This document shows positions 10,020 to 64,000 of a DNA stretch of 64,000 nucleotides, piece by piece. The stretch lies in the NCBI GenBank assembly GCA_019454045.1, contig SKCR01026830.1, positions 1 through 64,000 of the forward strand, written 5' to 3'. The stretch's first letter is position 1. Each line of letters opens with the position of its first letter. Origin of the DNA: Zanthoxylum bungeanum. Lineage: Eukaryota; Streptophyta; Magnoliopsida; Sapindales; Rutaceae. Both the position numbers and the translations under genes were made by a program. Under the pieces are notes generated by a model, which did not search any database, had not been told where the DNA came from, and saw nothing but the letters and a program-made list of their open reading frames with translations.

Positions 10020-10020
10020 A

Positions 10021-16059: not shown

Positions 16060-18107
16060 TGTTGGACAAAATGACCCATAGCGTCACTATTTGCACAGAT
16101 CATTGTGTTGTTGTAGCAAATTAACTATGTGACAAGGAAATTGCACTCTCATCATTTGTGATTAGATCACCATAGATATATAAATGAAGAGAGGTCCCTA
16201 TGATTAGTACCTGGACTGAGAATGATATGAGACAGTATCAGTCCCCGAAGGTTTAATCATTAAATATCCCTAGCCGTAGTATTATCGAGACTGGACATCG
16301 ATAATGCGGAATAGGCTAGTATTGCACTTGTGCGCGTTTGTGAGGGCACAACGGCATAGTTCTCATATATATAAGTATTGGATACTTATGCAAGTGCGAT
16401 AGGAGGTCGTGTTTCACCGACGGTACGGGAAACAGCTTCGCTCTGGATAGACCCCTCGGAATCCCATTGGTATTATGACTATGTGTCTATGGGAGGCCGA
16501 AATCAAGGTAGGTGTGTGTATGGTCTTAACCTGAGACTTACATCGCTAATACTTACGATAATCGATAAACTTTGGTCTTGGTGGTAGGGGACTTTAAACG
16601 GGTTCTGAGTACACCACTTCTGGGTTTATCAGAGAGTCGTAGAGTATTGGGTGTGATGTCAAGATGGAAGTATCACTTCAGTCATATGGAGATGATGTCA
16701 CGCAGGATACGGTATTAGTGCTCTTAAGTGCTGGCCGCCATCGGGATATTATGACAAGGTCATGTATATCCGATTATAGAGACTAGTTACCAGACATCCG
16801 ACATGTGCTTCGGACGGGGCAGACACTTATTATCCAGCCCCAGCTAGCACGTGATTATCCGATACTGGGCCGATATACACAATACATTAGTATAACTACG
16901 CTTGATACAGATCTATATTCTTAAATGGATATGTCCGGAGAATGGGTAGACTTGGTGCTTTGCTAGGAGTCGACCTTGTCTCGTAAATCGGTAGAACGTA
17001 GTACTTGGTACGTACGTGATTCGGATACTCCGACGACCGTATTTACTGCCAGATTATCCGGGGATCTCATGGGTCGCTTCCCGATAATCCACCGATGACG
17101 CACAACTCGCACTCTTAAATAATCTGGGATTATAATAGAAGAGAGAGAAAATTAATCTAGGATTAATAACGGAGATGTTTTATCCGGGATAAAATGTCGT
17201 CTAAAGAGAGAGAACGATTAATTCGGAATTAATCGATATATTAATATATTCGATATATTAGACGAAATTAGATTTCGACGCGGAATTAAAATCAGATTTT
17301 AATTCGGGTAAACGAGTTAATTTAGAATTAATTCGTTAGCGACGTAAATAATAATTTCGCTAGGCGCAATTATTTATTTAAATTCGATTGAATTAACGTC
17401 GCGAAGTAAGCTCGGTATTTCGGAAATATCGAACCCGAACGCGTGAGTGCACGTGGGCCCACTTTCATTTGGAAACGTGTGGGGCCCACATGACACATGT
17501 CATTCTAATGCTTTGCATGTAGATTGTGTACATTGCACTCAATGTCATTGCATGTAGATAGTGTACAATGCACTCAATGTTATTGCATGGAAATTGAGTG
17601 TTTTACACTCTAAGCCATTGCATGTTTTGTGTCATAATTTTTATTAATTTAATAAAATTATGGCATAAATATAAATTGATTTTTGGTAAATCATTTTTTA
17701 ACAACTTAATACACAATTTTTATCTCTCTCAAATTCTCTCTTCCTCTCACGGCAATGGTGGCCATTCTTCACTGGTTTTGAACCAGTTTGGGCGTGAATA
17801 GGGAAGCAAGAGTGGTTTCTCATGGTGAAATCAAGTGCTAGCACACTTTCAAGTTTTGCGAAGGTGGTAGGGAGGTTCACCCATGAGGCGGGACTCATCC
17901 GATGGATTTGGAGCTTCGTTTTGAGACCCGAAACTGCCAAGACAGTGAGCATGGACTGGTTTCAGTAAGCTTACCAGGCAGTGCGTTTTTGGGCAATTCG
18001 TCTTCAATCGACATAACCGATCAATGTAAGTATTCCGCTACTTCGTTGGTGTATCACGCATTATTTCATGTCTTGATTTGATCTTGGGACCTTAGAATTA
18101 ACCAACA
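16060..18107 (+). mobile_element. 3' LTR of element A
   Basis: 2048 bp and near-identical to 7963-10019. Differences are a few substitutions and small indels, for example GGCCGGCC against GGCCGCC near 8637/16732. It is followed by the AAAAG duplication and then the rest of the B LTR. Confidence 0.9.
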
Positions 18108-18112
18108 AAAAG

Positions 18113-24630: not shown

Positions 24631-26673
24631 TGTTGGGTTTCTAAGTTAGTCCCAAGATCAATAATCATAGAAATCATGTGTGAATACAATAAGAAGTATG
24701 GCAGAATCATACTTACATAGATCGGATTTTGCGATGTGAGGAACAACAAAACTTTTCTTGAAGCTCTCGGTAATGGTGCTTCTTTGTGCTCCATCATTTT
24801 CGGTCAACTCCATGGATGGATCTCCAAGCTCCAAGCTTTGTGTTGGTGATTCCATGCTCAAGGGTTTGTTTCCCTATCACATTTGGATGACTCTTCATGT
24901 GCTAGCATAAGAAAAATTTACCACAAATCTTTCTTGTTCTAGTTCTTGCTCTCGGTTTTTTGAAGCAAAAAGGAGAAGAATTGGCCCTAAGCCGAGAGAT
25001 AGAAGGAGGGAGAGAGAGAGAGTGAGTTGGTTATTTTTGTGTAATTGTTTTCTAAAAACATATACAAAAATTGCTTTCAAAATTTAGTCAAAACTTTTCT
25101 AAAAAGCAAAACCAATTTTGGAGGCAAAAATACATTAAATGCATTCAACAACCACCATCAACTATTCACATCAATCAATGATGACAAGCATCACTTCACT
25201 CAAAGTGATGTGACTTTCATCACTTGATTGACTAGTGATTTGACGCTTGATGTGACTTGTGGGCCGCATTTGAATACGAAATACGAGTGACCCCATAAAC
25301 ACTCCCGGGCTTTGGTTCGCTAATTCTGAATTAATGAATTTTTTGTTGCGACGTAATTAAATCAAATTTAATTAAATAATTATGCCTAGCAAAATTATTA
25401 TTCACATCGCTAACGAATTAATTCTAAATTAACTCGTTCGCCCGAATTAAAATCTAATTTTCATTCTGCGTCAAAATCTAATTTCGTATAATATATCGAA
25501 TATATTATTTTATCGATTAATTCCAAATTAATCGTTCTCTCTCTTTAAATAATATTTTATCCTAGATAAAATATCTCCGTAATTAATCCCAGATTAATTT
25601 TCTCTCTTTAATAATTAATCCCAGATTAATTAAGTGCGAGTCATACGTCATCGGTGAATCTTCGGGAAGCGACCCATGAGATCCCCGGATATGTTGGCAG
25701 TAAATCCGGTCGTCGGACTATCCGAACATGTACGTACCTAGTTCTACGTTTTTACCGATTTACAAGACATGGTTGGCTTCTAGCAAAGCACCGTGCCTAC
25801 CCAATTCTCCAGAAATATTCTTAAAGGAATATGTAATCTTTATCAGGCGTAATATACGTAGTATTGCGTATTACGATAGCATCGGATATCACGTGCTAGG
25901 CCTGGGGCTGGAATTGTGTCTGCCCCGTACAAAGCACATATCGGATCTTTGGTAACTAGTCTCTATAATCGGATAAACATGACCTAGTCATAATATCCCG
26001 ATAGCTGCAGCATAAAAGAGCACCAGCTCCGTATCCTACGTGATCATACTCTCCACTATGACTGGAGTGATACTTCCATTTTGACATCACACCCAATACA
26101 CTACGATTCTCAATATACCCAGAAGAGGCGTACACAGAACCTGTTAAAGCCCTGGACGACCAAAACCAAAGCATATTGATTGTCGTAAGTATTAGCGGTG
26201 CAAGTCTCAGGTTAAGACCAAATACACCTACCCTGATTCAGACTTCCATAGACACATAGTCATACTACCAATGGAATTTCGAGGGGTCTATCCAGAGCGA
26301 AGCTGTTCCCGTACCATCGGTAAACACAACCTCCTATTACACTTGCATGAGTATCCTATACCCAAATATATGAGAACTATGACGTTATGTTCCCACAACG
26401 CGCACAAGTGTAATACTAGTCTTTTACGCATTATCGATGTCCAATCTCGATAATACTCCGACTAGGGATATTTAATGATTAAACCTTCGTGGATTGATAC
26501 TGTTTCATATCATCTCAATCTGGAACTAATCATAAGGACCTTTTATCATTTATACATCTTGGTAATCCAATTACAAATGATAAAAGAGTAATTTCCTTTG
26601 TCACATAGTTAATTTATACAACAACACCATGATCTGTACAAATAGTGATGCTATGAGTCATAATTGTCCAACA
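24631..26673 (-). mobile_element. 5' LTR of element B
   Basis: 2043 bp, TGTTGGG to GTCCAACA. Contains the palindrome array at 25340-25640 and an intact version of the target site of element A (AAAAGAGCACCAG near 26015), which fixes where A entered the other LTR. Confidence 0.9.
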
Positions 26674-27590
26674 GGTTGGGTATGTAGGATTGGTCCTGAA
26701 GCCTTTCCGGTTATGGTGATCTCAATAGCTACCCGTGTTGCTCATCTATAAGCCTAGGACTCCCGTGTTTACATATCTGGTGTTGGCTCCCACAGTAAGG
26801 TACTTATGCTAGGTATTATATGAATTTCCTTCTTCGACTTTACTCCTAATTTGTTTCCGACTATTGGTCTTTACTCCTTAAGGGTCATGCTCTTTCAAAC
26901 TCCTTCGGTACAACTTCTGTTATTCTTCATACTAATCTTAGTTTCTTAACTCTCTTAAGTCATTACTTCCCTGGAAGCTCTACATCATCTTTGATAGGTT
27001 AGGGTATCACCACTAATACTTTTGGTTCAGGTTGTTATTCTCTTACTAGTCATTCCATTCGAGAATAATAGAGGGTTCTTTATAAATCGTATCTTTAACT
27101 CCTAGGGGTCATTCTCTGCATTTTTTACTCTAGCTCCTTACTCCTTGGAGCCTTTACTTTCTCGAAGGCTGTTCGTTGTACGATAGGGCGGTTTCTTTTT
27201 TTTTAGATCTGGCTAGACATACCGTTAATTCAATTCACTCGATCTCATACAAAATATTACCATTTCATGATTCTTATCTAGGTTCCGTTGACTTATCGGT
27301 TCAGCTATTTAGCCTTCTCGTGATATGTCTATTCCACCAGATACTCTTATTTACATGTTCTTCTCTTTACTAGGCTCTAACTTGAGGGGTGAATACATGC
27401 ATTCCACAGAGATCTATGAATACACATTTTTGTTATTTAGTTATGCTTGGTGATGGTCTGGTTAAGCGTATATATACTTACTAGAGTCAGGGCTACTGGA
27501 AGGAAGAATTACTATTCGTTCTGTTGGGATCTACATCGATTACCACATGTCTTTAAAGTTTCTCAACTTTTATCACTATTCTGAGGCCTC
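26674..27590 (-). other. Interior of element D, middle part
   Basis: Lies between insertions B and G. Pyrimidine-rich on the plus strand; no coding domain recognised. The last five bases, GCCTC (27586-27590), are the target duplication of G. Confidence 0.55.
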
Positions 27591-28853
27591 TGAAATGCTC
27601 ACAAAGTGGTCTTTTACACCCAATTATAAGAGTTTCGAAGTAATAAAATAACCCGATAAGTCCGGGGTCGATCCATGGGGAATAGATTTAGTAAAATAGA
27701 ATGATAAGTAGAGTGAAAAGAAAAAGGTTTGATTTGTTGAAGTTGTTGGAAATTTCTAAGTGCAAATGCAATAATAAAATGAAATACTAGAGTTACGGGA
27801 TCCACTTATAATATTTCAAATCTAGAAATCTCACTTCTTATAATATATAAATTGTCATTGTTACCCAGTTAATTTATCTTAGGAATTACTTATGCCAATA
27901 TATAGAACCGGCCAAAAAGGCGGTAGTCATTTCTATCGATAACTAGTCATGCCAAGGTACTAAATATGCCAAAAATATAAAACCAGCCATAAAGGCAGTG
28001 ATACTGTATAAAACCAGCCATAAAGGCGGTGATACTGTTTGTCTATAATAAGTCCAGTTAGGTACACAATTATGCCAAAATCGGATAAAACCAGCTAATA
28101 GGAAGTAACAAGATATAACCAGCCGTATAGGTGGCAATCAATTTTGTCAATAATTAATCCAGATCTAAATCAAGTTTTTATCATTAGATTAAAATTTATT
28201 TATTATAATGTAAGCGAGATTGATCAAAGTTTTTATTATAAAAGCTTCACCTTTTACCCCAGTAAAAAGAAACTAGCTACTCATTTTGTAATTAAAAATA
28301 CTCGTAATTTTATTGCCGAAAGACAAAGATATTACGAAAAGTTTTAAATAAATAAACACACAAGACACTATCTTCCAAAGTCTATAGAGAAATTGGAAAG
28401 AAAGCATGAAAATTTCTTCTGCTGGAAGCTTCAATTAATAGGTAAAATTTTGTCAACGCGTCGCAACGCCAAAGCTGTGCGCATCACGACGCTGATGCCA
28501 GCTGTGTACACATGTCGAAAGATTAGCGCGTCAGGACGCTAAAGTCTTACGTGTCACGACGTGAAAGGCGGTGCCCGCAATGTTGTTCTTATAGGCATGT
28601 CGCGACGCTGAGGCCTTGCGCGTCGCGTCGCGCATGCTGAAATTCCGTTTTTGTCTTTTTCCAAGTCTGGTTTTTCCTGTCGAGCTTCCGAGCAGTATTT
28701 TACCTACCAAATAAAAAATACACAATAAAAATGTACAAAATATAATTTAGAATATTATTTCACAGACATGTTAAATTAAGGGGATTAGTGAAACTACAAG
28801 TGTAAAATGATTGATTTTATGTATAATAAATATGTATTTTTTAGTATTCATCA
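27591..28853 (-). mobile_element. 3' LTR of element G
   Basis: 1263 bp, TGAAATGCTCAC to ATTCATCA. It carries about five spaced copies of a motif near AACCAGCCATAAAGGCGGT (27905-28135) and CpG-rich palindromic motifs such as GTCGCGACGC (28445-28630). It differs from the other LTR of G at many sites, so the insertion is old. Confidence 0.85.
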
Positions 28854-29225: not shown

Positions 29226-31306
29226 TGTTGGACAATTATGACCCATAGTGTCACTATTTGTACAGATCATGGTGTTGTTGTACAAATTAACTATGTGACA
29301 AAGGAGATTGCACTCTTATCATTTGTGATTAGATCACCTAGATGTATAAATGATAGGAGGTCCCTATGATTTGTTCCTGGATTGAGAATGATATGAGACA
29401 GTATCAGTCCACGAAGGATAAATCATTAAATATCCATAGTCAGAGTATTATCGAGATTGGACATCGATATATACGTAAAAGACTAGTATTATACTTGTGC
29501 GTGTTGTGAGGGCACAATAGTATAGTTCTCATATATTTGGGTATAGGATACTCATGCAAGTGTAATAGGAGGTTGTGTTTACCGATGGTACGGGAAACAG
29601 CTTCGCTCTAGATAGACCCCCTCGAAATTCCATTGGTAGTATGACTATGTGTATATAGAAGTCCGAAATCAGGGTAGGTGTATTTGGTCTTAACCTGAGA
29701 CTTGCAATGCTAACACTTGCGACAATCAATATACTTTGGTTGCGGTCGTCCAGAGCTTTAACAGGTTCTGTGTACGGCTATGCTAGATATATTGAGAATC
29801 GTAGTGTGTTGGGTGTGATGTTAAGACGGAAGTGTCACTCCAGTCATATGGAGTTGATGATCATGCAGGGATACAGAACTGGTTCTCTAAAAGGGTTGCA
29901 ACCGTCAGGATAATATGACTTGGTCATGATTATCCGATATTAAAGAGACTAGTTGCTCGTTATCCGATATATGCTTCGTATGGGGCAGACACCGTACCAG
30001 CCATAGGCCTTGCATGTGATCATCCGATACTGGATAGAAATATGCAATACTACATATACTACGCCTGATATAGATCCTTTATTTCTGTAAGGATATTTCT
30101 GGAGAATTGGGTAGGCATGGCGCTTTGCTAGAAGCCAACCTTGTCTTGTAAATCGGTATAAACGTAGTACGAGGTACTTACATGTTCGGATAGTCCGACG
30201 ACCGAATTTACTGCAAACATATCCGGGGATCTCATGGGTCGCTTCCCGAAGATTCACCGATGACGTATGACTCGCACTTTTAATTAATCTGGGATTAATT
30301 AAAAGAGAGAGAAAATTAATCTGGGATTAATTGCAGAGATATTTTATCTGGGATAAAATATCATTTAAAGAGAGATAACGATTAATTTGGAATTAATCGA
30401 TTAATTAATATATTCGATATATTAAACGAAATTGGATTTCGACGCGGAATTGAAATTAGATTTTAATTCGGGCGAACGAGTTAATTTAGAATTAATTCGT
30501 TAGCGATGTGAATAGTGACTTCGCTAGGCGTAATCATTTAATTACGACGCAACGGAAAATTCGTTAATTTGGAATTAGCGAACCCGAGCCTGGGATTATT
30601 TGCGAGCGCATTCACATTTCGAATTCGAGTGCGGCACGCAAGTTAAATCAAGCGTCAAATCGTTAGTCACATCAAGCGTCAAATCATTAGTCACTTTGAG
30701 TGATGTGACAACTTGTCACTTGATTTGATTGATTGATGTGAATTGATGGTGGAGTGTAATACACTCAAGTGTGATGTGTGATAGACATTAAATATATTTT
30801 AAATGTTTGGTATTTGTTTTGATTTTAGAAATCAATTATTTGATTTTTGAAAAGTAAAATAATTATGTATTAGATACACTTTTCTTACCAACCATCACAC
30901 AACACTTCCTCTCTCTTTTCTCTTCATCTTTCTCACGCCCAAGGGGCTGAAACTTTATGGTTTCTGGTTTGCAAAAAATCGTGAGAAGGGAAGCCAAAGT
31001 GCTTGGTTTTTGTGGCAAAAATCAAGAGAGCTAGCACTCCGAGAGATATGCGAAGGTGATAAGGAAGTCCGCCCATGAGCCGGGAATCATTTGACGAAGC
31101 TTGGAGCTTGTTCAAGGACCTCCAATGGCCGAAAATGAGGAGCAAAATGCAGTGCACTGCCGTGAGCAGTAAATAGGGCAATGAAGATTTTTGTTGCCTC
31201 GCGCGTCGCTCAACCGATCGATGTGAGTATTCCACAACTCCCTCGTTGTATTCACTTATGTTTCATGCTTGTTTATTGATCCTTGAGACCTTAGTAAACT
31301 TCAACA
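29226..31306 (+). mobile_element. Solo LTR of copia family 1 inside element G
   Basis: 2081 bp, TGTTGGACAA to TTCAACA, flanked by the perfect duplication CTTAA (29221-29225 and 31307-31311), with no interior. This is the mark of LTR-LTR recombination after insertion. Palindrome array at 30270-30560; GCGTCAAATC direct repeats near 30652-30690. The host sequence joins across it to match element H. Small frames in it are LTR sequence. Confidence 0.93.
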
Positions 31307-31691: not shown

Positions 31692-31705
31692 TAGTTGTTT
31701 ATAAT

Positions 31706-31720
31706 ACACACACACACACA

Positions 31721-31753
<33 letters not shown>
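31706..31753. repeat. CA/TA microsatellite
   Basis: A run of AC dinucleotides, broken once, followed by AT dinucleotides. Confidence 0.95.
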
Positions 31754-32282
31754 AACACATTTCACTGCCTTTAGGTGTTACCTCCAACAAACTAGAGAAC
31801 TGAATATTACCAAATTTTCACTTACTACATATGAGCATATGTTACCATGTCGCTGATAATATCTGTCAAATGAGCATAAAAAAATCAAATTTAATCAATA
31901 TTATGGAGAATTCAAAAATTTAAATGATTCAAAAAGAAAGGAACAACAAATAACTTGTTACGAATTATTTTGAGATGCGTCTCAGGAGCAAAAAAATCCT
32001 TACACAACCACCTCCGAACAATAATTCCATTTGGTTTAGAAAATAATTTGTTGTTAGTTTGTGTGTATATATATGGATATATATTCTTACACACAAAATA
32101 ACACAAAGTAATTTTTTTATATATTAAAAACAGCAAAAAAAAATGAAAATTATCTTTATAAACTGTCCCATTGGCCCAACCAAAATGAGACATTCTCCCC
32201 AATGTTTAAGGGAAAGAGAAGTAGAGTTTAGAAGATATCACCTGATTAGTGCAGAATTGACAATTGCATCTACGACTAAAGA

Positions 32283-32919
32283 TTACAAATTAAGGTCCAT
32301 GTTTACTCTATGCTTTTTGCCACGATCGTTACCGGTCTGGTTCAATTTGGAAAGGATATGATCGATTTTTGGTTCATAAGCTAAGAGTTGGTCAAATAAA
32401 TTATCAGATTTTCTTCCAGTTAGGAAGATATCTCTTACTGGTTTTGAAATAAATCCATTTCTTTTGGCATCTTCAAGAAATACAAAAAGAAAATCGAAAA
32501 AACCATTAATATTAAACAGCCCAATGGGTTTTTGGTGAATAGTGAAGTTTGCCCATGACGCAACTGTGAATATTTCTTCCATCGTGCCCAGCCCACCTGT
32601 AAAGAAATAAAAACGTCAGCTTGATTCATCATTTCAGTGAGTCTTTCAGACATACCTGAGACAATACATTCTTCTCCATTTGATTTTCCGACGTTGTTGT
32701 CATATGTTAAGGGTTTTGGAATGATCCCCAAAACCTGACTGCCACCTTCTTGTATAGCCTTTGAAATACACCCATCAATCCAAGATTGCCACCGCCATAT
32801 ACTAAGTGCCTAACTCTACCCAATTCTCTCGCAGCCTCAACAAATTCTGGTTTAGTTTCAGAGCTAGTTCTATAAAACACACAGATATTAATGACTCGTC
32901 GTTTTGAAGTTGTCTCCAT
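32283..32919 (-). pseudogene. LOG-family (cytokinin riboside 5'-monophosphate phosphoribohydrolase-like) gene carried by element G
   Basis: LOG enzymes cut the ribose phosphate from cytokinin nucleotides to give active cytokinin, in the cytosol. Start ATG at 32919, stop at 32283-32285, about 212 codons, matching the usual LOG length of around 210-220. Visible in order: N-terminal ICVF strand followed by SSETKPEFVEAARELG, the nucleotide-binding GGGNLGLMG, GIIPKP, MSER, and the family motif GGLGTMEE (the Pro before it is lost at a frameshift), then WANFTIHQKPIGLFN and a C-terminal tail ending MDLNL. Two single-base losses break it, after GLMG and just before GGLGTMEE; no in-frame stop was seen. 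It has no introns, whereas typical plant LOG genes have several, which suggests capture from an mRNA. It lies on the coding strand of G between integrase and the 3' LTR, and H has a related copy. It could be a chance processed pseudogene, but the second copy in the same position argues against that. Confidence 0.88.
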
Positions 32920-33149
32920 TTGTGCTATCTCTCTTAGCTAAATGTTTTGAAGAGAGAGAAGTGACGAGCTGAATTTATAGATCTTGAAAAAGGTGTGAGT
33001 AATAAATACACTAGTACCTACAAATGACAATTGTCAGTAAAATAGATTGTGAACAAAAAAGGTTAGATACTGTAGCCAAAAGTAAAGAACAGTAAAGTAA
33101 ATCAAAACAGTAATTGAAATCAAAGCAATAAATATATACTGGTAGTTGT

Positions 33150-33751
33150 GATTATGGCTCACATCTTCCTCTGGTTTTACGTAAAGTAATGGCTTGAACG
33201 CCATCTATGGGTCGGGGATAGGCTTCCCATCCAACTTTTTTATAAATTGGCTAACATAGTCTTTTAAAATCAGATTCCCGAGACTGTATTGTTGTCTTTT
33301 TTATGAAATTGTGTATGTAACTTGTGAATCTCACGATGAACATATCCATTAGGATGCGTCTCAAGAGTCAATGATATATCATTTTAAGACTCCTTACTCA
33401 AGCCATCTCTAATGAATTGAATTTTATCTTCGCGATTTTCAGACACCATTCCTAAAGAACGACAACGAGTGTTGCACGTACAACGTGCATATTTATAAAA
33501 AACACCTAATTGTTAAGCTTTTCATTTTTAGCATAGGTGTTTTTCCCTAAACCAGACATGTAAGAAATGAAAGAGCCAGATGACTCACCTGCAAAGTGAA
33601 CTTTTTCTTCAATTAACTAACGAATATCACTAGGAATACCATGAATCATAAGAAACCTCATTCTTTCTGTGCGTGCTTTGTAAATTTTTGTCAGAGCATT
33701 TTGAGGAAGAGAAGGAAAATGTTTGCATAGGTTTGCGAGAGTTTCTTCCAT
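33150..33751 (-). pseudogene. Unrecognised decayed frame between integrase and the LOG-like gene
   Basis: Starting at an ATG at 33751 the minus strand reads MEETLANLCKHFPSLPQNAL and continues with RMRFLMIHGIPSDIR, a stop, LIEEKVHFAGESSGSF and GLGKNTYAKNEKL. After a frameshift it continues with YKYARCTCNTRC, ENREDKIQFIRDGLSKES and THPNGYVHREIHKLH before decaying. The first frame is about 90 codons with one stop, and the continuation about 90 more. A Cys cluster (C-X-C-X3-C) stands out. I do not recognise the family. It could be an element-specific accessory protein or another captured host fragment. Confidence 0.5.
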
Positions 33752-33930
33752 GCCTTAGTTGTAGGGTATCAGTATTTTTAGGAGACTGAAATAATCGACT
33801 TTGAGTCACGGAGTACCATTATCCGCTGCTTAACCGGGGTGTGAGATTAAAAGGAAAAAGACAAAAATGCTACAAAACTAAGAAAAATGGAAATTAGAAA
33901 AATATTAAACAGAAAAGAAAAGAAATTACA

Positions 33931-35000
33931 TCAATCACAGTACACTAGGTTTGACAGGAAAAAAGATTCTCGAAAATTTGAACACTCCAAAAATGGTTTC
34001 AGACGTTGTCCATTCACTTTAAATATATCACCATCCCTAGGATTCTCAATGTCAATAACCCCATATGGATAAATGTGTTTCACAATAAATGGGCCACTCC
34101 ATTTGGTTTTTAATTTTCCAGGAAATAAATAAAGACGAGAATTATAAAACAAAACCTTTTGACCAACTTCAAATATTTTTCGTGAAATTCGACTATCATG
34201 AAAGGCCTTAGTTTTACCTTTAAAAATTTTCATATTCTCATATTAATCATTCCTTAACTCTTCAAGTTCATTTAATTGCAATTTACGTTCATGACTGGCA
34301 TTTTCAAGGTTTGAATTAAATGTTTTAATAGCCCAATATGCTTTATGTTCAATTTCTACAGGAAAATGACAAGGTTTTCCATAAATTAGATGATAGGGTG
34401 ACATTCCCAAAGATGTTCTGAAAGCTGTTCGGTATGCCCAAAATACATCAGTTATTCGAAGAGACCAATTTTTGCGATTTGGGTTAACCGTTTTTCCTAA
34501 AATTTATTTAAATTCCCTATTTGCTGGTTCAACTTGACCATTTGTCTGAGGGTGATAGAAGGTGGAAACTTTATGTGTGACTCCATATTTTTCATTAAGG
34601 ACTCAAAGGGTCCGTTACAAAAGTATTTACCTCTATCATTTATAATGGCCCGAGGGATTCCAAATCGACTTAAAATATTTTCTTTTAAAAATTTGATCAC
34701 AGTTGTCTGATCATTATTCCGACTAGGAATTGTCTCGACCAATTTTGATACATAATCGACTGCAACTAAAATATATAAAAATTCAAATGATGGTGGAAAT
34801 GGGCCCATGAAATCTATCCCCCAACAATCAAAGATTTCGACGACAAAGATGAGATTTAAAGGCATCGTGTTTCTTTTTGAAATGGATCCCAACTTTTGAC
34901 AGTTTTCGCAAGTTTTGCAGAAAGTGTGTGTATCTTTAAAAATGGTGGGCCAATAAAATCCACACTGCAACATTTTTACAACGGTTTTCTTAGATTAAAA
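33931..35000 (-). pseudogene. Gypsy integrase of element G, broken
   Basis: Inserts the element cDNA into chromosomal DNA. The 158-codon piece at 34497-34973 begins in the zinc-binding region (FCKTCENC), then the catalytic core with the first Asp in GIDFMGPF, DYVSKLVE, and the second Asp in NDRGKYF. The C-terminal piece (33931-34233) has [12 protein letters not shown] and KWSGPFIV followed by YGVIDIENP, typical of Athila/Tat integrase C-termini. The pieces are separated by frameshifts and stops between about 34234 and 34496. Confidence 0.85.
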
Positions 35001-35183: not shown

Positions 35184-35705
35184 TCATGTTGCAAGAAAAT
35201 TGACAATATTAGCATACCAAGGCATTGTGTTTACAGAGAATAAAAACTCATCGGAAAATGAGTCATTGATGAGAGTTGTATCAATTAGTGACTCGTTTGT
35301 GAGTCTCGATAAATGATCTACAACCACGTTCTCTGCCCCTTTCTTATATTCGATTATGAGATTGAATTCTTGAAGTAACAAAATCCACCATATTAATCTT
35401 GGCTTTGCATCCTGTTTAGATATGAAATATCTAACAGCAGAATTATCAGAATAGAAAATGGTTGAAAAACCAATTAAATATGATCAAAATTTATCCAATA
35501 CAAATATTACAGCAAATAGTTCTTTTTCTGTGGTAGTGTAATTCATTTGTGCACTGTTTAAAGTTCTACTTGCGTAATATATTACATGCGGCTTGCCTTG
35601 CTTTCTATATCCTAGCATTGCACCAACTGCATAATCACTAGCATCATACATTAGCTCAAAAGGCAATGACCAATCAGAGGATTGCATAATAGGAGCAGAA
35701 GTCAA
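35184..35705 (-). pseudogene. Gypsy RNase H of element G, broken
   Basis: Piece 35484-35705 contains FELMYDASDYAVGAMLG and HVIYYASRTL, then TEKELFAVIF: the conserved start of Ty3/gypsy RNase H with its catalytic Asp and Glu. Piece 35184-35381 has [17 protein letters not shown], the usual RNase H end (the ADALSR region), and runs on to the integrase linker. A stop and frameshift lie between them. Confidence 0.87.
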
Positions 35706-36002
35706 AAAATTGATAATGTTCTCAAATGATTTTTGACATTCTTCTGTCCATTCAAATGTTGCATCTTTTAAAAGAAGGTTACATAAGGGTCTGGATATGG
35801 TAGTAAAGTTTTTAATGAAACTTCTATAAAATCATGCTTGTCCTAAGAAAGAATGGATTTCCCTGACTGTTTTTGGTGATGATAATTTAGAAATTACCTA
35901 TATTTCTTCCTTGTCAACCTCAATAAATTTAGTCTATACAATGTGACCAAAAACAATTCCTGAATTAGTCATGAAATGATATTTTTCTCAGTTTAACACA
36001 AG

Positions 36003-36827
36003 TCATTTTTCTTCACATCTTTTCAAAATATTTTCCAAGTTATTCAAGTAATTATCAAATGAATTCCCAAGAACAGTTATATCATCCATAGAGACCTCTA
36101 AACAGTGTTCAACAATATCACTAAATATGCTTAACATGCACCGTTGGAATGTTACAGGTGCATTTATAAGTCCAAAATGCATTTTCCTAAATACAAATGT
36201 TCCAAAGGGACATGTGAATGTGGTCTTTTCTTGGTCTTCTAAAGCAATGGGAATATGATAATAACCCGAGTAACCATCAAGAAAATAATAGTATGGATGT
36301 CCAACTACCCTATCCAAAATTTGGTCAAGAAATGGTAAAGGAAAATGATCTTTTCTTGTTGCGTCATTTAGTTTTCTATAATCAATGCACATACGGCAAC
36401 TAGATGGGATGCGAGTTGGGATTAATTATCCTTTATCATTTTTTACAATAGTAATTCCAGACTTTTTGGGTACAACTTATGTAGGACTTACCCATTTACT
36501 ATCAGAGATAGGGTAGATAATGCCTACATCAAGAAGTTTAAGGACCTCAATTTTTACTACTTCTTTCATATGAATGTTTAATCTTCTTTGGGGTTGATGA
36601 TATGTCCTAGCATTATCTTCTAAATGTATTCGGTGTGTGAAGATTAATGGATTAATGCCTTTTATGTCTTTTAAAGCCCATCCAATTGCTAGTTTGTGTT
36701 CTTTCAACATATTTAACAGCTTACCTTCTTGATTGCTTGTAAGAAGAGAAGAAATTACCACATGGTAAGTTTTTTTATCTTCTAGAAATGCATATTTCAG
36801 TCCTTCTATCAAAGCTTTTAACTCCAA
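36003..36827 (-). pseudogene. Gypsy reverse transcriptase of element G, broken
   Basis: Piece 36477-36827 holds the N-terminal part (HKLAIGWALKDIKGI and FTHRIHLEDNA). Piece 36003-36392 holds MCIDYRKLNDATRKDHFPLP, the first catalytic Asp at FLDGYSGYYHIPI, TFTCPFGTF, MHFGLINAPVTFQRCM, and the double Asp as SMDDITV where FMDD or YVDD is usual. A frame break lies between 36393 and 36476. Confidence 0.88.
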
Positions 36828-36944: not shown

Positions 36945-37436
36945 CTAATCCATTTGCTCACTTGAATCAACAAAATTAGTAGTACAAATTTCCATGGGAT
37001 CAGATAAACTCCACTGAATATGTTCATCCACAATTGGTTCAATTAGTTCTATGCTTTCGTTTTCATTATTCTCATCATATGGCTGTTTGTACATGTTAAA
37101 AATATTTAGTTCCAATGTCATGTTGCCAAAAGACAGATTCATGATTCCATTCCTACCATTAATTAAAGCATTAGTTGTTGCTAAAAATGGGCGACCAAGT
37201 ATTACAGGGATTTTCTTATAACTGTCTGCCACAGGTTCTGTTTCTAAGACAATAAAATCCACATGATATATGAATTCATCGACTTGCAATAACACATCTT
37301 CCACAATTCCTTTTGGTACCTTAACTGATCTATCGTCAAGTAAAAGAGTAGTTGAGGTTGGTTTTATCTCACCAATATTAAGTTGTTGGTAAACCGAAAA
37401 TGGAAGCAAATTGACACTGGCTCCGAGATCAAGCAA
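36945..37436 (-). pseudogene. Gypsy aspartic protease of element G
   Basis: 163 codons with active-site DLGASVNLLPFSVY, then DEFIYHVDFIVLE and IPVILGRPFLAT: the retropepsin pattern of Athila/Tat elements. The downstream Glu/Asp-rich linker to reverse transcriptase is broken. Confidence 0.87.
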
Positions 37437-38250
37437 AACATTTTCAATAATTTGATTTCCAATAATACAGGAAATAGTTGGACAACCATGGTCTTTATAT
37501 TTTATTACATTATTAGTTGATAGAATGGAGCTTACCTGTTTGGCTAGAAATTTTTTTCTTTCTTACTTGATGTTTTCTTTTAACGGTGCACAAATATTTC
37601 AGAAATTTGGCATAATATGGTATTTATTAGATGGCATCTAATAAAGGAATATTGACCTTTACTTGTTTGAATATATCATAAATCTATGGGGAATGGTCCA
37701 ATTTCTTTATTTTTAATGTTTGAGGAAATGGAGGTGCATGTGACAAATTATTATTATCAACGACGGATAATGGTTCATCAACCTCTTCCTTACCCTCTGA
37801 ATCTATTTTATTCTCAGCTTTGCGAGGTTCAAGAATAGGTCTGTGGATGTCCTTACCACTACGAAGAGTAATAACATATTTGACTTGGTTTAAGTGTTGA
37901 TTTCCAGAACTACCCTCGTGAGAATTTAAATGACTCTTGGGATTTGACTGTGGTTGTGCATGAAACTTTCATTTCTCATTAATGGTCAATGCAAAAGTAA
38001 TTTTAGCAAAAGTTTCTCTCAAATCATTCATCATTTTTACATTTTGGTTATTGATGGTTTCCTGTTTCTCCATGAATGCATTCAAGGTATCCTCAATGGT
38101 TTTCCTAGGTGGTGGGACATATGGTGCATAATTCTGGGAATTTCGGGAATTCTAGTAAACCTGGGGAGGTTGTTACGATGATTGTGTTTGGTTATCATAC
38201 CTCCAAATGAAGTTTGGATGATTTCTCCAACCAGAATTGTAGGTTTATGA
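37437..38250 (-). other. Gag-protease linker of element G
   Basis: Low-complexity and decayed. No domain is recognised; a plus-strand frame at 37954-38181 is antisense to this linker. Confidence 0.5.
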
Positions 38251-39200
38251 GTATAGGTTTGGATTTAGTCTATTGAATGTGTTTATGGAAATGACTTGGT
38301 CATGGAGGCATTCTTGTAGGGCTGGTAAGGATGGAAAATTTTGTGTGACATGTTTATTCGAATTACAGATTTGACATAGGATTTCCTGAACTGACTTGAC
38401 ATGATCACTTTTTCTGCTTCTAAAGCCTCATTTTTTTTTTATAGAGATGCATACTTGGCAGCAAGGTCATGGTCTTCCCTAAGGTTAAACAAACCTCTAC
38501 CAGATGACTGTTGTTTTACAGACGACTCATAGATGCCTACTATGTCCCATTATTGTGCATTCTCTACTATGTGTTCTAGGTAATCTAGTGCATCTTCAGG
38601 ATCTTTGTCCCTAAACTCACCATTACACATCATCCTCACTACTTGTCTACCTTGGAGTGTTAACCCTTCGTAGAAATAGGCGACCAGCCTCCATGTTTCA
38701 AACCCCCGATGTGGATAAATATTTAACATTTCTTTAAACCTCTCCTAACATTAGTAAGGTCGTTCCTCCGACTCTTGTGTGAAGGTTGTGATTCTCCTCT
38801 TAAAGGAATTTGTTCCATGAGGGGGAAAGAACTTTTTAAGAAACTGTTCTTGTAAATCATCCCATATTCTAATAGATCCCGACCTAAGATTTTGCAGCCA
38901 AAGTTTAGCTTTATCCTTTAAAGAAAAGGGAAAAACTTTAAATGAATTATATTCATGCTACAATTTTGGTCTGTGTAAGTGTTACATACCTCTTCAAACT
39001 CCCTTAAGTGCTGATAATGATTTTCTGATTCTAGACCGTAGAATGTGGGTAAAAGATGGATGACAACTTATTTAAAATTGAAGCATGTTGCATATGGTGG
39101 AAAAATAATGCAGGATGGTGATCTTGTCGTAGTGGGATTCATAAATTGTCTGAGTGTCCTAGGAAGATAAGGATCTCTATGCTGAGACTCATTTTCTTTC
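38250..39200 (-). pseudogene. Gypsy gag of element G, broken
   Basis: Structural protein that forms the particle and binds element RNA. On the minus strand from about 38950 the frame reads FKVFPFSLKDKAKLWLQNL, IRIWDDLQEQFLKKFFPP, FKRRITTFTQESEE, a stop pair, ERFKEMLNIYPHRGFETW, VAYFYEGL and then LREDHDLAAKYASL. This is the retrotransposon gag domain of Athila/Tat type. At least three stop codons and an unclear N-terminus make it non-functional. Confidence 0.8.
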
Positions 39201-39487: not shown

Positions 39488-39503
39488 CCCCGTAACGGCG
39501 CCA
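39488..39503 (-). other. Primer-binding site of element G
   Basis: Sense-strand TGGCGCCGTTACGGGG, six bases from the 5' LTR; the Athila/Tat-type primer site. Confidence 0.85.
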
Positions 39504-39509
39504 AAAACT

Positions 39510-41101
39510 TGACACGCTCACAAAGTGGTCTTTTACTCCCAAGTATAAATGTGTCGAAGTAATAAAATAACTCGATAAGTCCGGGGTCGATCCACAGGGA
39601 ATAGATTTAGTAAAACAGAATGATAAGTAGAGCGAAAATAAAAAGGTTTGATTTGTTGAAGTTGTTGGAAACTTTTAAGTGAAAATGCAATAATAAAATG
39701 AAATGCTGGAGTTAGGGGATCCACTTTTAATATTTCAAATCTAGAAATCTCGCTTCATATAATATATATATTTTCCTTATTACCCAGTTAATTTATCTCA
39801 GGAATTCATTATGCCAATATGTAGAACCGACCATAAAAGCGGTAGTCATTTCTGTCGATAACTAGTCCTGTCAAGGTACTAAATATAAAATCAGCCATAA
39901 AGGCGGTGATATTGTATAAAACCAGCCATAAAGTCGGTGATACTGTTTTTCTATAATAAGTCCAGTTAGGTATTCAATTATGCCAAAATCGTATAAAACC
40001 AGCCATATAGGCGGTAGCTAGTTATAACCAGCCATATAGGTGGTAGCCAAATTTGTAAATAATTAATCCAGATCTAAATCAAGTTTTAATCATTATATTA
40101 CAATTTATTTATTATAATGTAAGCGAGATTGATCTAAGTTTTTATTATAAAATCTTCACCATTTTCCCCAGTAAAAAGAAACTAGCTACTCATTTTGTAA
40201 TTAAAAATATTCATAATTTTATTACTGAAAGAAAAATATATTACAGAAAGCTTTAAATAAATAAACACAAAAGACAATATCTTCCAAAGTCTATAGAGAA
40301 ATCAGAAAGAAAGCATGAAAATTTCTTCTACTGGAAGCTTCAATTTACAGGCAAAATTTTATCCATGCGTCGTGACGTCAAAACTGTGTGCGTCTAAGGG
40401 TGGCAGTTTAGCCCGCGGCCCTGCCCGGGCCAAATTTTTTTTTAAAAAAAATATAAAAATATAAAAATATAAAAATATATATATTTTTTAATATGTTTGT
40501 ATCATTTTTATTTATTTTTAACATTTAAATGTTAATTTATCAATGAAACTTGTGATTTATATATAAATTGTCTTTGTATATAGTGTAACTATATTTTATA
40601 TTTATATATTTTAAAATTTTAAATTTTTTTTAAATTCGGGCCCAAAAAAAAGCCTGGGCCCAAGCCCGGCCCGAGTCGGGCCAGGGCCTTTTTTTTTTGT
40701 CGGTCGGGCTCGGGCCGGGCTTGCAAAGATTAGCGCATGCCGACGCTGATACACGTGTCGAAAGATTAGCGCGTCGCGATGCTAAAGTTCTGTGTGTCAC
40801 GACGCGAAAAGCGGTGCCCGCAGTGTTGTTGTCCTTATAGGCGCATCGCGACGCTGAGGCCTTGTGTGTTGCAACGCGCTTGCTGAAATTTTGTTTTTGC
40901 CATTTTCCAAGTCTGGTTTTTCCTGTCGAGCTTCCGAGCAGTATTTTACCAACCAAATAACAAAAATATACAATAAAAATATACAAAACATAACTTATAA
41001 TATTATTTCACATACGTGCTAAATTAAGGGGATTAATGAAACTACAAGTGTAAAACGATTGATTTTGCGTACAATAAATATGCACTTTTTAGTATTCATC
41101 A
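39510..41101 (-). mobile_element. 5' LTR of element G
   Basis: 1592 bp, TGACACGCTCAC to ATTCATCA. It is longer than its partner because of a GC-ended insertion at about 40396-40727. It has five copies of the ACCAGCCATAAAGGCGGT-type motif (39828-40050) and CpG-rich palindromes near 40370 and 40760-40880. Confidence 0.85.
40396..40727. mobile_element. Probable truncated hAT-like insertion in the G LTR
   Basis: Absent from the other G LTR. The left end AGGGTGGCAGTTTAGCCCG resembles the AGGGATGGCA start of the hAT element at 60686. Both ends are rich in GGGCC/GGCCC and the middle is AT-rich. The right end stops after GGGCCGGGCTTGC without the expected GCCACCCT, and no target duplication is clear. 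Confidence 0.45.
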
Positions 41102-41636
41102 GCCTCCATCTACGTTACTGTCTTCAAGCTACTTAATCTATGCTATTATACGTACTGTACTCTCTTGTCACTTTCTGTATCCTTCTTATTGTTTCCATAT
41201 CCCATGTCTTGGCTTTAAGTCCTGTTACCGAGGCTAGTGGTGGTTCATTCTTCTGGGCTACTTCCTAGATCTCTTCTATCTTCTCTTGCTAAAGGCTACA
41301 ACTATGCCTGGTACTCTTGCTAACTTTCGAATGTCTTCAATCTCATAGGTCTGCCCTTTTAAACTTTCAAGGATTCCAATTAGCATTGGTCCGATCTATG
41401 GGTTCTTACTGGTACTATAAACTTATCCATTTTGACTTGGGTCGGGTTCTTTCTTTTCTATCCTTTGAAACCTCATTGGTTCTTCTCTGGGTGGTCTATC
41501 TTTCAGTGTTCTCTATTTCTTGCTTAGGATAAATTCTCATTGAGCTTCCTTACGGTTATATTTATCTAAACTGGTAAAGGGTGGGGCAAGCTTGTACATC
41601 TCGACGGATATTGACATACTTGTTTTGGTATTCTAT

Positions 41637-46578: not shown

Positions 46579-49150
46579 TGTTTAGTGAGGAATAGACAAA
46601 CCTGAGCGCAGCGGAAACCCGCCTGAGATCAAATCGCGAGCGAGTAAAATATAGATATATATTTTTTTTTAATTTTCGGCAGTCCTTAAAAAAAGGGGGT
46701 AAAATTTTTAATTACAAACTTAAAATTTCCAATGCATTAAAACATTTTCATGTATTAAAAATTACCATAAGTCCATTTAAAAATTTCAACACACTTTAAT
46801 CAATTTATCAACTATTGACAAATTAAAACTAAGCATCCTAATTATTTTCAACACTTGAAAATAATCCAAACATACTAAAATTAATTTTCCAACACTTTTG
46901 AAAAAATTAATTCAAGCATACAAAATAATTTTCCAACTCTTGAAAAAATAAATCCAAGCATTCAAAATTAACATATCAATTATATACTAATTTTCAGCAC
47001 TCAAATGCTTCTAATTCCTCACTAACATGCTTCCTATTAATCCAACAAATCCACAACATTTTTTCTCAACTACAATCATCAAGAATTTGAACAATAAATT
47101 TACAAATTAAATTTACCACAAGCTTTGCCAATTGATTGGAACTTTTGCCTCCAAGCTTTTCCAATTGATTGAAACTTTTGCCTCCAAGCTTTGAGTCCTT
47201 TCAAATCCCTTATTCCTCCACCAAATTGAGCTTCTCCAAGAACAAATCTTGGTGATCAAAAGGTGGTTTGATCACTCAAGAATGGCAACAAGATTTTCCC
47301 CAAAATTTAACTCTTAAACCCTAGGAAAAATCCAAGCTCTTCAAAAACACAAATTAACCATTAACTTGATTTTTGTAGGGTAATATATGGTGAGATTTTG
47401 GCTTGATTTGAAGCAAACCAAAAAAACAAAAGCTTTTTTCCCTTTTCAAAATCGGCAGTGAGGGGTTGCTTTTCTTTCTTGTTTTTGCTTGGCAGTAGCT
47501 TGTAAGCAAAAAGCAAAATGCTTTTCCTTTGTTTTTGTTTTGTCAACGGCAGTGGCTTGTAAGAATGAGCAAAAGTTTTGTTTTTATTAAAATAAAATAA
47601 TGAAAAACAAAAACAAAACATTTAATAAACCATGGTAAGAAAGCATCTTTTATCTACACCACTTGTTTCAAAAAACAACTCAACCATAGTTAAATTATCT
47701 CACTAACCAAGGTAACTAAATTGCAATTAAAAGATTTTAGTTACTTTAACTAAAAATATTCAATTACATTAACTAAAGTTACTTTAATTAATTAAAACCT
47801 TTATTTGTATAAACCAAGTAACTAATTTTATATATTAATTTAACAATTAAATTAATTTCATAAAATAATTACTAATTTAATGTAAATCAAATTTACATTT
47901 ATTATACAATAAAAATTATATCAACTCTTGATATAAAATTAATTAATTCAATTCATCTCATGAATTATCGGATTAAACAATTTAATCCTAAAAACCCAAA
48001 AAATACTTTGTCAATATTTGACGAAAGGTCGCCCTAGTGCTCAACGAGTAAACTCAATATAATGGAACTCTTTAGGTTCACGTTCAGTTGTTATATATAT
48101 ATATATATATATACACATATCTCATATACATGTATACATATTTCATGAAGGACTGTCCACCTACAAATCATGACTAAACAACACGACACGTCGAACCATA
48201 CAAGTCGAGGTTAAAACGCTAATGTATAATCCCTTCGTCATCAATGTTTCCAATTGAGTAAGGTTATAGTTATACTGTCAAAACCTTATCTACTCAATAT
48301 AAACTAATCTTTCAAAGCTATATTCCATTAATAAATAATATATGCGAAACTCTTTTCAATATTATATATAATGTCAAAGAAACAATTTCTTCGATGAACT
48401 CTCGGCCGAAAGATTTCCGGAATATACTCTGAAAATTATCTGGAAACATAATCCAACCATATGGACTGACGAATCCTCATATTAACACACACCGACCTTG
48501 GTGAGCATCGGTCTATACCTAACAGACATCCAGCGGTCAGACCATGAAAGGTCTCTGACATGCATGGTATCAGGCATAGAGGATCACTCACAAGACCACC
48601 GTGGTGTCTCAAGTCAAATGACCACAATAACTACTCAACTCGAAAAAACAACTATTGACAGTTTTATGGAATATCTATTAGTCATCTTTTATGAGTTAAT
48701 TCAATATTCATTCAACTAATGAATATCTGCATTTCTATAAGAACTTCCGCTAAGCTCACAGTCTGTTGAGACAAACCATATGTCCATTACATATATAGAC
48801 AATGCACTAGTCTTACCAATATAATGACCGACCCATGTCAATATAACTAGACTATGAATAATTTATATTCGAGAGAATGTTTGATATTTCTCAACATCAT
48901 TTGCAACTCTTGCAACTATATCATCATATGTTGTAACTCTCGGGTCTTTACTAAATTCATATAAGGTTCCGAGTATAACTCGAAATCTCTAACTCTTAGA
49001 GTAATCTAACTCTTAGATTTACAATATATAAATAAAGTAAGAGTTTTACCATATTAATAAATAAATAACCATGATAAAATAAATATTATATTCCATAAAT
49101 ATCAAATATTTCTACAAAATGTGAATGGTGCTCGATCACCATTTTCAACA
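46579..49150 (-). mobile_element. 3' LTR of element F
   Basis: TGTTTAGTGAGG to TTTTCAACA. It contains a 32-bp tandem pair (CCAATTGATTGGAACTTTTG type, 47128-47195), present in both LTRs, and a TA microsatellite at 48091-48112. The small frames it contains recur in the other LTR and show no domain. Confidence 0.92.
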
Positions 49151-49162
49151 CTCCCACTTGAT
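49151..49162 (-). other. Polypurine tract of element F
   Basis: Sense ATCAAGTGGGAG directly before the 3' LTR. Confidence 0.85.
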
Positions 49163-52100
49163 CTAGTGCCATTCACGATGGTATCTAATACCCATAGACT
49201 CCACGTGTTTCTCAAACACCTTGGGAGTTAAGGATTTAGTTAGTGGATCTGCTACATTTTCTTCAGTTCGTACTTTACAAACTACAATATCACCTCTAGC
49301 CAAAATTTCTCTAATTATGTGATACTTTCGTTCCACATGCTTAGATTTCTGCTGAGCGCGAGGTTCCTTGGCTTGAGCTATCGCACCATTGTTGTCACAT
49401 AATAACATAATAGGATCTACTATAGATGGGACTACTCCAAGCTCCGCAACAAACTTTTTGATCTAGACAGCTTCCTTTGCGGCTTCTGAAGCAGCAATGT
49501 ATTCTGCCTCGGTGGTGGAATCAGCAGTCGAACTATGTTTGGTGCTTTTCCAACTAATGGCACCACCATTGAGAGTAAATACAAACCCAGATGTAGACTT
49601 TCTATCATCTGGATCAGATTGAAAATCTGAATCCGTGTAACCTCTCAATTGTATGTCATTTTCTCCATAAATGAGAAACTTATCCTTTGTACCCTTAAGG
49701 TATTTCAGAATATGTTTCACAGCCATCCAATGGTCCTGACCCGGATCAGACTGATAACGGCTTGTAACACTTATAGCCATGCTGATATCAGGTCTAGTAC
49801 ATAACATGGCATACATTATGCTACCAATAGCGGAAGCATAAGGCTGGCTAAGCATTTTAGCCTTTTCATCATCTGTCTTAGGACACATTTTCTTAGACAG
49901 ATGAATACCATGTTTGAAAGGCACATTGACCGTCTTACAGTCAACAAAGTTGTACCTTTCTAAGATCAAATCAATGTACTTGGACTGAGAGAGTCCTATC
50001 AACCTCCTCGCTCTATCTCTCTATAAAGCTTTATACCTAGTATATAAGAGGCCTCTCCCAAATCCTTCATGGAGAAATTTTACTGAGATAGGCTTTGACA
50101 GATTGTAACATACCTATATCGTTTCCGATAATAAGTATATCATCAACATAAAGCACTAAAAATACTACCATGCTCCCATTAACCTTTTTAGACACATAAT
50201 TCCTCTCCATTCTTAATGAAACCAGACGATCTGATCACATCATCAAAATGAAGATTCCAACTACGGGAAGCTTGTTTAAGTCCATAAATAGACCTTTTAA
50301 GCTTACATACCAGATTAGGATCTTTGGCGAATGCGAATCCCTCGGGTTGTTCCATATGGATATTTTCCTCAAGATTTCCATTCAGAAAAGCCGTTTTCAC
50401 ATCCATCTGCCAAATTTCATAATCATAGTGTGTGGCAATAGCTAATAAAATCCTGATTGACTTAAGCATGTCTACAGGAGAAAAGGTTTCCTCATAATCA
50501 ATACCTGATTTCTGAGTATATCCTTTTGCTACCAGTCGGGCCTTAAAGGTTTCAACCTTTCCATCGGGCCCCCGCTACCTCTTGTAACCCATTTACAATC
50601 GATAGGAATAATTCCGTCGGGAAGCGGAACCAAGTCCCAGACTTGATTATCATGCATTGAGGCAATCTCGGATTTCATAGCTTCCAGCCATTTCTCCGCA
50701 TCGATGTCTAACATCGCCTCTCTGTAAGTTAAAAGATCTTTTTCTTCAATTAAGAAAACATCGAGCGTATCATCAGATGACGTCATGTACCTGACAGGGG
50801 GTCTCGATATCCTTTGTGACCTACGAGATGGTTGTGTCAAAGGTATCTCATCTTCTTGAACTTCTGGTTCTATCGTCGATTCAATGTTACTTTGATTGAC
50901 TTCATCTAAATCAATCATTCTATGATCTGCACTTTCTAACACAAATTGTGTTTCTAAGAAAGTTGTTTTCCGAGCAACGAACACATTTCGATTCTCGGGA
51001 TCATAGAACTGATATCCCATGGAATTTTTAGGATATCCAATGAATCGATACTTGTACCCTCTAGGTGCAAGTTTATCCCGTTGTGCAACTCTTACATAGG
51101 CAGGACAACCCCAAATCTTAACATACTTAAGACTCGGTTTCTTTCCAGTCCATAACTCATACGGAGTAGTCGGAACGGCTTTCGATGGAAATTTGTTCAA
51201 AAGACGAGCGGCAGTGTCTAGAGCATGGCCCCACAAGTATATTGGTAGATCAGTAAAACCCATCATCGATCGAACCATATCTAATAAAGTTCGATTCCTC
51301 ATCTCCGAAACACCATTGTGTTGAGGAGTGCCTGGAGGAGCATACTGAGTGAGAATCCTATTCTCTTTTAAATAACTCACGAACTCACTGCTCATGTACT
51401 CACCGCCCCGATCTGATCGAAGGCATTTCAAGAGTTTTCCGGTTTGTTTCTCTACTTCAAATCGATATTCTTTGAACTTTTCAAAAGTTTCCGATTTGTG
51501 TTTCATAAGAAACACATAATCATATCGTGAAAAAACATTGATAAAAGTTACAAAGTATTGAAACCCACCCTTGGCAGCATGATTTATAGGACCACATACA
51601 TCGGAATGCACAAGTTCCAATAAATCATTAGCACGGTGTCCAACACCACTAAATGAGGATTTGGTCATTTTACCTTGAATACAATATTCGCAAACAGGTA
51701 AGGGTTCTATGGTTAGATCATCTATCACACCATCCTTAACTAGTTTGGTTAGGCGTTTTATGCCTATATGACCTAATCTCATATGCCAAAGTTCTGTGTT
51801 ATTTATTTCTTCCGATCTTTTCCTTTTAGATTTCTCTATATTAAAGACATCACGATTTTTGGTAAGAATGTAATGACCATCAACCATGGGACATGAAACA
51901 AGCAAAACATTCATATTATCATATAAATTCAAAAGACCATCTTTAATATTTACATGAAATCCTTCGCTGTCAAGTACAGGAAGTGAGATGATTTGCCGTA
52001 TCATAGTCGGCACAAAATAACAGTTATTAAGTTTAATATTACATTCATCAGAGAGTTTCAAAAATAAAATTCCTACTACTTCAACTTGTAGAGAATCTAC

Positions 52101-55902: not shown

Positions 55903-55907
55903 ATATC

Positions 55908-63709: not shown

Positions 63710-64000
63710 CTACATCTTAAAAAGAAAATTAAGGTTAAGATCCAGATTTATCCGACGCTTCTTACCACGATCATTATCGGACTAGTTTATCTTTGAAAGG
63801 ATATGGTCAATTTATGGTTCAAAGGCTAAGATTTGGTCAATTAAATCATGGGCAGTTCTGGCAGTGACGAGGATTTATTTTACAGGTTTTGACACGAACC
63901 CATTTCTCCGGGCATCATCAAGAAACACACAAAGAAAATCATAAAATCTATCAACGTTAAATTGTCCAATTGGTTTCTGGTGTATGTTCAAGTTCGCCCA
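63710..64000 (-). pseudogene. LOG-family gene carried by element H, C-terminal part
   Basis: Second copy of the LOG-like gene, cut by the window edge. The minus strand reads from WANLNIHQKPIGQFN through DFLCVFLDDARRNGF to a tail with RGKKRRINLDLNL; stop codon at 63710-63712. Three in-frame stops interrupt it: after SKPVK, after AFEP and after LSKIN. Most differences from the copy in G are conservative (I/V, K/R, D/E, F/Y, L/I). Relative to G the C-terminus is longer by a few residues. Its catalytic motifs would lie beyond the window. Confidence 0.85.

Follow-up and report, generated by a model that had tools for sequence, protein, structure and literature searches.

A LOG-derived gene with a changed pocket and a basic, LxLxL-ending tail is an old family trait of a gypsy retrotransposon in Zanthoxylum bungeanum

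Extra open reading frames (ORFs) are common in plant gypsy elements and mostly unexplained, and two Athila-like elements with similarity to LOGL4 were reportedly found by Steinbauerova et al. in 2011. A YgdH domain, which is found in LONELY GUY (LOG) proteins, is described for the gypsy consensuses of two Citrus species and of Populus in the accessible text of a study from 2022 (PMC9289625), which cites the 2011 report of Steinbauerova et al. Since LOG-like genes have thus already been reported in gypsy elements, the kind of element described here is known, and the remark in an initial annotation of this DNA, that no element carrying LOG was known, does not hold in view of the Citrus and Populus cases. 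With these our locus shares the presence of a LOG-family domain inside a plant gypsy element; beyond what the accessible text of that study contains, it displays a high copy number, a fixed position, selection, the loss of a pocket, a basic tail ending in LxLxL and a companion ORF termed OX. The same text describes an orchid gypsy family in which an extra host-like enzyme ORF is similarly kept, although there the enzyme is an RNA demethylase whose activity was shown, whereas the LOG of the present family is known from sequence (PMC9289625). From host LOGs such as AtLOG3 (2a33), AtLOG8 (1ydh) and those of the LOG7 type, the element LOG retains the fold, the motif PGGxGTxxE and, in most proteins, the catalytic Arg and Glu; unlike them, it is intronless, resides in an element, has mostly lost Lys100 and Glu125, carries a new tail and forms a clade of its own. 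Its LxLxL, here located at the very end of the protein, is shared with EAR-motif proteins, which in the accessible literature include effectors of bacteria, fungi and oomycetes, and it differs from these effectors in being borne by a retrotransposon on a LOG fold, as a candidate for corepressor binding.

The window analysed in this study comprises 64,000 nucleotides from the start of a contig of 154 kb in a 3.96-Gb assembly. It contains a retrotransposon, element G, which occupies 41101 to 27591 of the minus strand, and at its end part of the LOG of another element, H. The features are as follows.

27586..27590, no strand: GCCTC target site duplication, low end
27591..28853, minus: 3' LTR of element G; two blocks match the 5' LTR at about 89% and 87% identity
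29226..30752, no strand: part of a nested repeat in the interval from LOG to the 3' LTR
32283..32919, minus: LOG-derived gene, dead copy
32974..32979, minus: TATAAA, 60 bases before the LOG ATG
33321..33700, minus: OX, second accessory ORF, broken in G
33934..34242 and 34246..34503, minus: C-terminal pieces of the integrase (no Pfam match; aligned to H)
34497..34994, minus: integrase core, rve and zinc-binding part (Pfam)
35187..35831, minus: RNase H (Pfam)
36003..36425, minus: reverse transcriptase (Pfam RVT_1)
36945..37562, minus: protease-like frame (conserved in related loci)
38754..38957, minus: gag piece (Pfam Retrotrans_gag)
39488..39509, minus: primer-binding-site-like stretch adjoining the 5' LTR
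39510..41101, minus: 5' LTR of element G, interrupted by about 340 inserted bases
41102..41106, no strand: GCCTC target site duplication, high end
63731..64000, minus: LOG of element H, the part in the window, continuing to contig position 64381

The presence of GCCTC on both outer sides of the LTR pair constitutes a 5-bp target duplication, and on the minus strand gag, reverse transcriptase, RNase H and integrase, all recognised by Pfam, are followed by LOG and the 3' LTR. The LTRs, the 5-bp duplication and the order of reverse transcriptase, RNase H and integrase are traits of Ty3/gypsy elements, and from its motifs and primer-binding site we take G to be Athila-like; an archaeal-type RNase H marks Tat. 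The frame at 36945-37562, which has no Pfam match, presumably encodes the protease, as judged by its motif, and the primer-binding-site-like stretch at 39488-39509 presumably corresponds to tRNA-Asp. The nested repeat at 29226-30752 has an inverted counterpart at 25152-26673, with which it shares 85.7% identity. Between the two LTRs, 129 of 1231 aligned positions carry differences, which, if rates of 1.3e-8 and 7e-9 are assumed, places the age of G at about 4-8 million years. The element is a dead copy of a high-copy family with the plan LTR-gag-(protease)-RT-RNaseH-integrase-OX-LOG-LTR, whose structure and status as a family are near certain.

The LOG-family sequence of G spans 32919-32283 on the minus strand, from an ATG at 32919 to the end VNMDLNL-stop, and, as the initial annotation had proposed, it lies within the gypsy element: inside both LTRs and the GCCTC duplication, on the sense strand and between the integrase and the 3' LTR. 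The single near full-length frame ascribed to it is contradicted by a split into three pieces that overlap and do not share a frame (32919-32770, 32776-32600 and 32612-32286), and the motifs GGGNLGLMG and GGLGTMEE, which are both present as claimed, sit in different frames. A single broken piece scores 28.4 bits with PF03641 (cut-off 27 bits), and about five codons before HLVYGGG found in other copies are missing. Element H (about 63-69 kb of the contig) contains reverse transcriptase, integrase and LOG in the same order as G, and its LOG is likewise broken and ends in INLDLNL. The ORF at 32435-32809 was rejected as the LOG frame, as it is off frame in its second half. Because this query was partly off frame, the stops found in its matches are partly an artefact, and the genome was searched again with P0001, a protein of 217 amino acids very similar to the Z. 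bungeanum copies (up to 98% identity).

The position of LOG is reproduced throughout the genome. The copies considered here were all found through LOG queries. Twenty regions were fetched, two extending the contig of the window and 18 being mostly top matches of the search with ORF 32435-32809, a set biased towards G by the nature of its query and selection. LOG is found in 19 of the 20, with the integrase upstream on the same strand in 16 of these 19, and a same-sense LTR match is located downstream of LOG in 19 of 20 copies including G, mostly at a distance of 1.2-1.4 kb, those of H and L024 being short. Two blind tests of the predicted integrase site were carried out. For 20 further matches of ORF 32435-32809, spread by hand over the list, windows of 1.1 kb contained the integrase in 12 cases, a contig end having left 162 bases of one window and one of the matches having been weak; for 20 of 150 matches of P0001, windows of 701 bases contained it in 17 cases, with one candidate near a contig start having been replaced. 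An integrase on the opposite strand was found in none of the 20 windows of either test. The search with P0001 yielded 69,800 candidates, of which 150 were scored; these cover all or nearly all of the 217 residues at 87-98% identity, and by hand count 47 of them are devoid of stops. The results thus bear out that LOG sits at the same place in many copies, that copies with an open LOG frame exist and, by its fixed offset to integrase and LTR, that it is a standing part of the element.

To place these genes among LOG proteins, three protein searches, with the best 120 matches listed for each, provided 323 sequences, which were divided by the similarity of their cores without the last 20 residues into 172 element-type proteins, with stem proteins counted among them, and 151 host proteins. 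For a first tree, 72 element-type proteins with 205-260 amino acids (of 120 listed) were combined with 29 host LOGs (every fourth of 114) and AtLOG8; here the element type is set apart by a branch that has a length of 0.83 and a support of 100/100. In a second tree of 68 hand-chosen proteins with LOG3, LOG7, LOG8 and a bacterial outgroup, element and stem types together are supported by 96/91 and the element type by 99/98. The host LOGs in both trees come from other sources than Z. bungeanum, whose own host LOG genes lie outside the sampling. The element-type LOGs thereby appear as one clade apart from host LOG1/3/7/8, which looks new. The element and stem side of the second tree includes Populus, Reevesia, Diplodiscus, Xanthoceras, Acer and Paulownia; proteins of other species presumably lie in elements as well, those seen in place being the Z. 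bungeanum copies. The Populus proteins P0041, P0044 and P0058, which are named LOGL10 (cytokinin riboside phosphoribohydrolase), are found within the element-type clade.

The predicted structure of P0001 has a LOG fold with a mean pLDDT of 84.9, and its best matches in the PDB are AtLOG3 and AtLOG8; in sequence, P0001 matches AtLOG3 with an E-value of 1e-58. The fold, PF03641 and PGGxGTxxE together place the protein in the LOG family, and no relatives of P0001 were found in viral contigs. In the numbering of CgLOG (PMC4979012), the catalytic residues are retained in most of the 172 element-type proteins (Arg99 in 154, Glu122 in 167). Conversely, the residues proposed in the accessible text on CgLOG to bind adenine and the prenyl group (PMC4979012) have been largely replaced, with Lys100 present in 21, Glu125 in 19 and His97 in 66 of 172, compared to 151 of 151 host proteins at each of the five sites. 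The replacement of Lys100 and Glu125 affects about 88% of the element-type proteins and extends to G-type copies, and the host state at all three pocket sites is found in seven of the first 120 proteins. According to the same text, alanine at the tested active-site residues of CgLOG, with the exception of S19A, nearly abolished activity (PMC4979012), which, together with the loss of pocket residues, makes plain cytokinin activation unlikely for most of the clade. The description of the gene as a cytokinin-activating LOG is thus sound with respect to its family, whereas activation is doubtful in light of the replaced Lys100 and Glu125 and of a tail that host LOGs lack. The standard cytokinin function has likely been lost in most of the clade, and the gene most likely encodes a re-purposed, nucleus-directed LOG-fold protein rather than a plain cytokinin-activating enzyme.

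The tail is a second pronounced feature that distinguishes the element type. An exact terminal LxLxL is found in 89 of 115 full-length element-type proteins compared to none of 143 host proteins, and a basic patch before the end in 109 of 115 compared to one of 143. The 26 proteins without the exact motif include near forms (IDLNR, LDFNL), stem forms ending after the basic patch and truncated proteins. Loss of the pocket and LxLxL occur together in 88 of the 115 proteins, loss of the pocket without LxLxL in 16, neither in 10 and the tail alone in one. In the model of P0001, residues 203-217 are disordered (pLDDT below 50). LxLxL corresponds to the EAR pattern as given in the accessible literature, although such short motifs can have other roles; we infer that the tail may mediate nuclear entry and binding of TOPLESS, and a role with nuclear corepressors is plausible.

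The evidence for long-term selection on LOG is strong. Between H and 19 G-type copies, the median dS of LOG codons is 1.27 and dN 0.18, with a dN/dS of 0.137 (0.118-0.167) when a local-similarity filter is applied against off-frame pieces and values of 0.12-0.30 with the filter off; for G and H, a codon bootstrap ranges from 0.086 to 0.271. Close pairs (dS below 0.15) show a dN/dS of about 0.47, in keeping with a decay of most copies once they are inserted. The 15 codons of the tail are themselves constrained: in six pairs, 9.3-10.7 synonymous sites have undergone 8.5-9.5 changes, and 34.3-35.7 non-synonymous sites have undergone 2.5-4.0 (Fisher p between 2e-7 and 8e-5, the pairs being non-independent in that they share one deep comparison). 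Counting against selection is the similarity of G and H beside LOG, which at 70-85% compares to 69-75% in LOG itself (31701-33800 vs contig 63150-65260); in part these flanks consist of the OX ORF and a promoter-like stretch, and the similarity extends to the apparently non-coding 3' flank. As our data show, the LOG-derived gene has long belonged to this family, in which selection has maintained it, and is not a recent passenger.

Upstream of LOG, 17 of 20 copies, among them H, carry a TATAAA at a distance of 55-66 bases from the ATG. A pyrimidine-rich stretch comes after it and, in most copies, a TTTTCAGG-like stretch precedes it, suggesting that this region may act either as the gene's own promoter or as a splice acceptor. 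OX, the further ORF between integrase and LOG, is present in 19 of 20 loci, with open frames at L014:3769-4248, L013:6098-6553 and L020:5979-6359. Its identity between H and L020 is 74%, and its dN/dS between H and other copies is 0.223 (0.197-0.342) at a dS of 0.66. Four of seven OX copies scanned exceed the cut-off of 20.9 bits for the Pfam family Carla_C4 (PF01623; 29.7, 25.7, 22.5 and 22.1 bits, best E-value 6.4e-7) with a match to Viral_NABP beside it, and the remaining ones score 20.8 bits, 12.9 bits or do not match. OX thus resembles the nucleic-acid-binding protein of carlaviruses, from which it differs in being retrotransposon-borne; homology is likely but not settled because the matched stretch is short. 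OX has no match in the PDB up to an E-value of 1 and only chance-level matches in PHROGs. At L020:3957-7401 there are two copies of OX and, besides one LOG, part of another, with integrase pieces in between, as if a section of the element had been doubled or nested.

The reading we tentatively prefer, at somewhat less than even confidence, is that of a LOG-fold protein which has departed from cytokinin activation, with a tail directed to the nucleus and TOPLESS and with OX as companion; the part of it that concerns identity is near certain. The LOG-derived protein would mostly keep the nucleotide-monophosphate site and the catalytic Arg and Glu, with Lys and Glu of the proposed pocket gone, while its disordered tail, by way of the basic patch and the terminal LxLxL, would direct it to the nucleus and bind corepressors of the TOPLESS type. 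While expressed, either from its own promoter, with the TATAAA at around -60, or by way of splicing, it might allow the element to alter host or its own transcription or to draw corepressors off silencing, and OX would serve as companion accessory factor. As judged from sequence, the nuclear and TOPLESS step appears as the likeliest single mechanism, although a mere adaptor would have little reason to retain the catalytic residues. A rather unlikely version, which assigns both genes to a counter-host module, would combine OX as a virus-type cysteine-rich nucleic-acid-binding protein with LOG as a nuclear, TOPLESS-recruiting effector that has lost its pocket, gained a repression tail and is old or mobile across Malvaceae, Populus, Sapindaceae and Paulownia. 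Somewhat unlikely in our estimate is a working hydrolase for a different or broader range of nucleoside monophosphates, serving reverse transcription or the particle, for example via the nucleotide pool, with a tail for nuclear import or packaging rather than for TOPLESS. The LOG fold, the retention of Arg99 and Glu122 alongside changed residues on the base side and a dN/dS of about 0.14 over the whole protein would suit such an enzyme, which by itself does not explain the terminal LxLxL and to which the loss of Lys100 may be costly, in light of the alanine mutants of CgLOG described in the accessible text of PMC4979012.

That the element supplies a LOG enzyme which releases active cytokinin in the meristem or in germ cells, along the lines of the speculation in the initial annotation, is improbable: the fold and PGGxGTxxE are kept and the seven proteins with host pocket residues would be compatible with it, but Lys100 and Glu125 are replaced in most of the clade and in G-type copies, His97 is retained in a minority, and P0001 scores 120 bits with the NCBIfam model of the cytokinin enzyme, a model designed for bacteria with a cut-off of 300. 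A passive passenger that stems from a single capture of a host transcript and is decaying unused, as might be suggested by the broken state of G, H and most sampled copies and by the dN/dS of the close pairs, is very improbable and was rejected on the low dN/dS of H versus G-type copies, the conservation of catalytic residues and tail across the clade and the 47 of the best 150 scored copies without stop. That G and H each received a host LOG gene or retrocopy in a recent event of its own has a practically negligible probability; nested insertions are common in the window, but element-type and stem proteins occupy one side of a branch in both trees (100/100; 96/91), and G and H have LOG in common at the same offset to integrase and LTR, so that this origin is refuted by the trees within their sampling.

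Returning to the re-purposed LOG-fold protein, the element-type clade, the constraint on LOG, the loss of the pocket and the basic tail with LxLxL look new. No mention of pocket loss, tail, selection or OX was found in the accessible text of PMC9289625, PMC7264820, PMC6317226, PMC11963269 and PMC4979012, and a search of the open-licence literature, as far as its accessible text extends, found no retrotransposon LOG with an EAR tail; for OX, at which this search was not aimed, we make no claim of novelty as to print. As its ancestor is known, the constraint on it has been measured, and both the loss in the pocket and the gain in the tail are specific, the role of the LOG ORF becomes testable. 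Corepressor binding by its tail would mean that a plant retrotransposon exploits a host hub which, according to the accessible literature, is also used by pathogen effectors. Some plant proteins named LOG or LOGL10, such as those of Populus in this clade, may be transposon proteins rather than hormone genes.

Elsewhere in the window, copia-type frames (about 49.2-53.0 kb) are located between direct repeats of about 2.57 kb with 96.5% identity (46579-58477), which looks like a younger copia element. The region 1-30752 is rich in related repeats of about 1-2 kb, which occur in both orientations, and in nested elements; one pair of these repeats, at 7963-10020 and 16060-18108, shows 97.9% identity.
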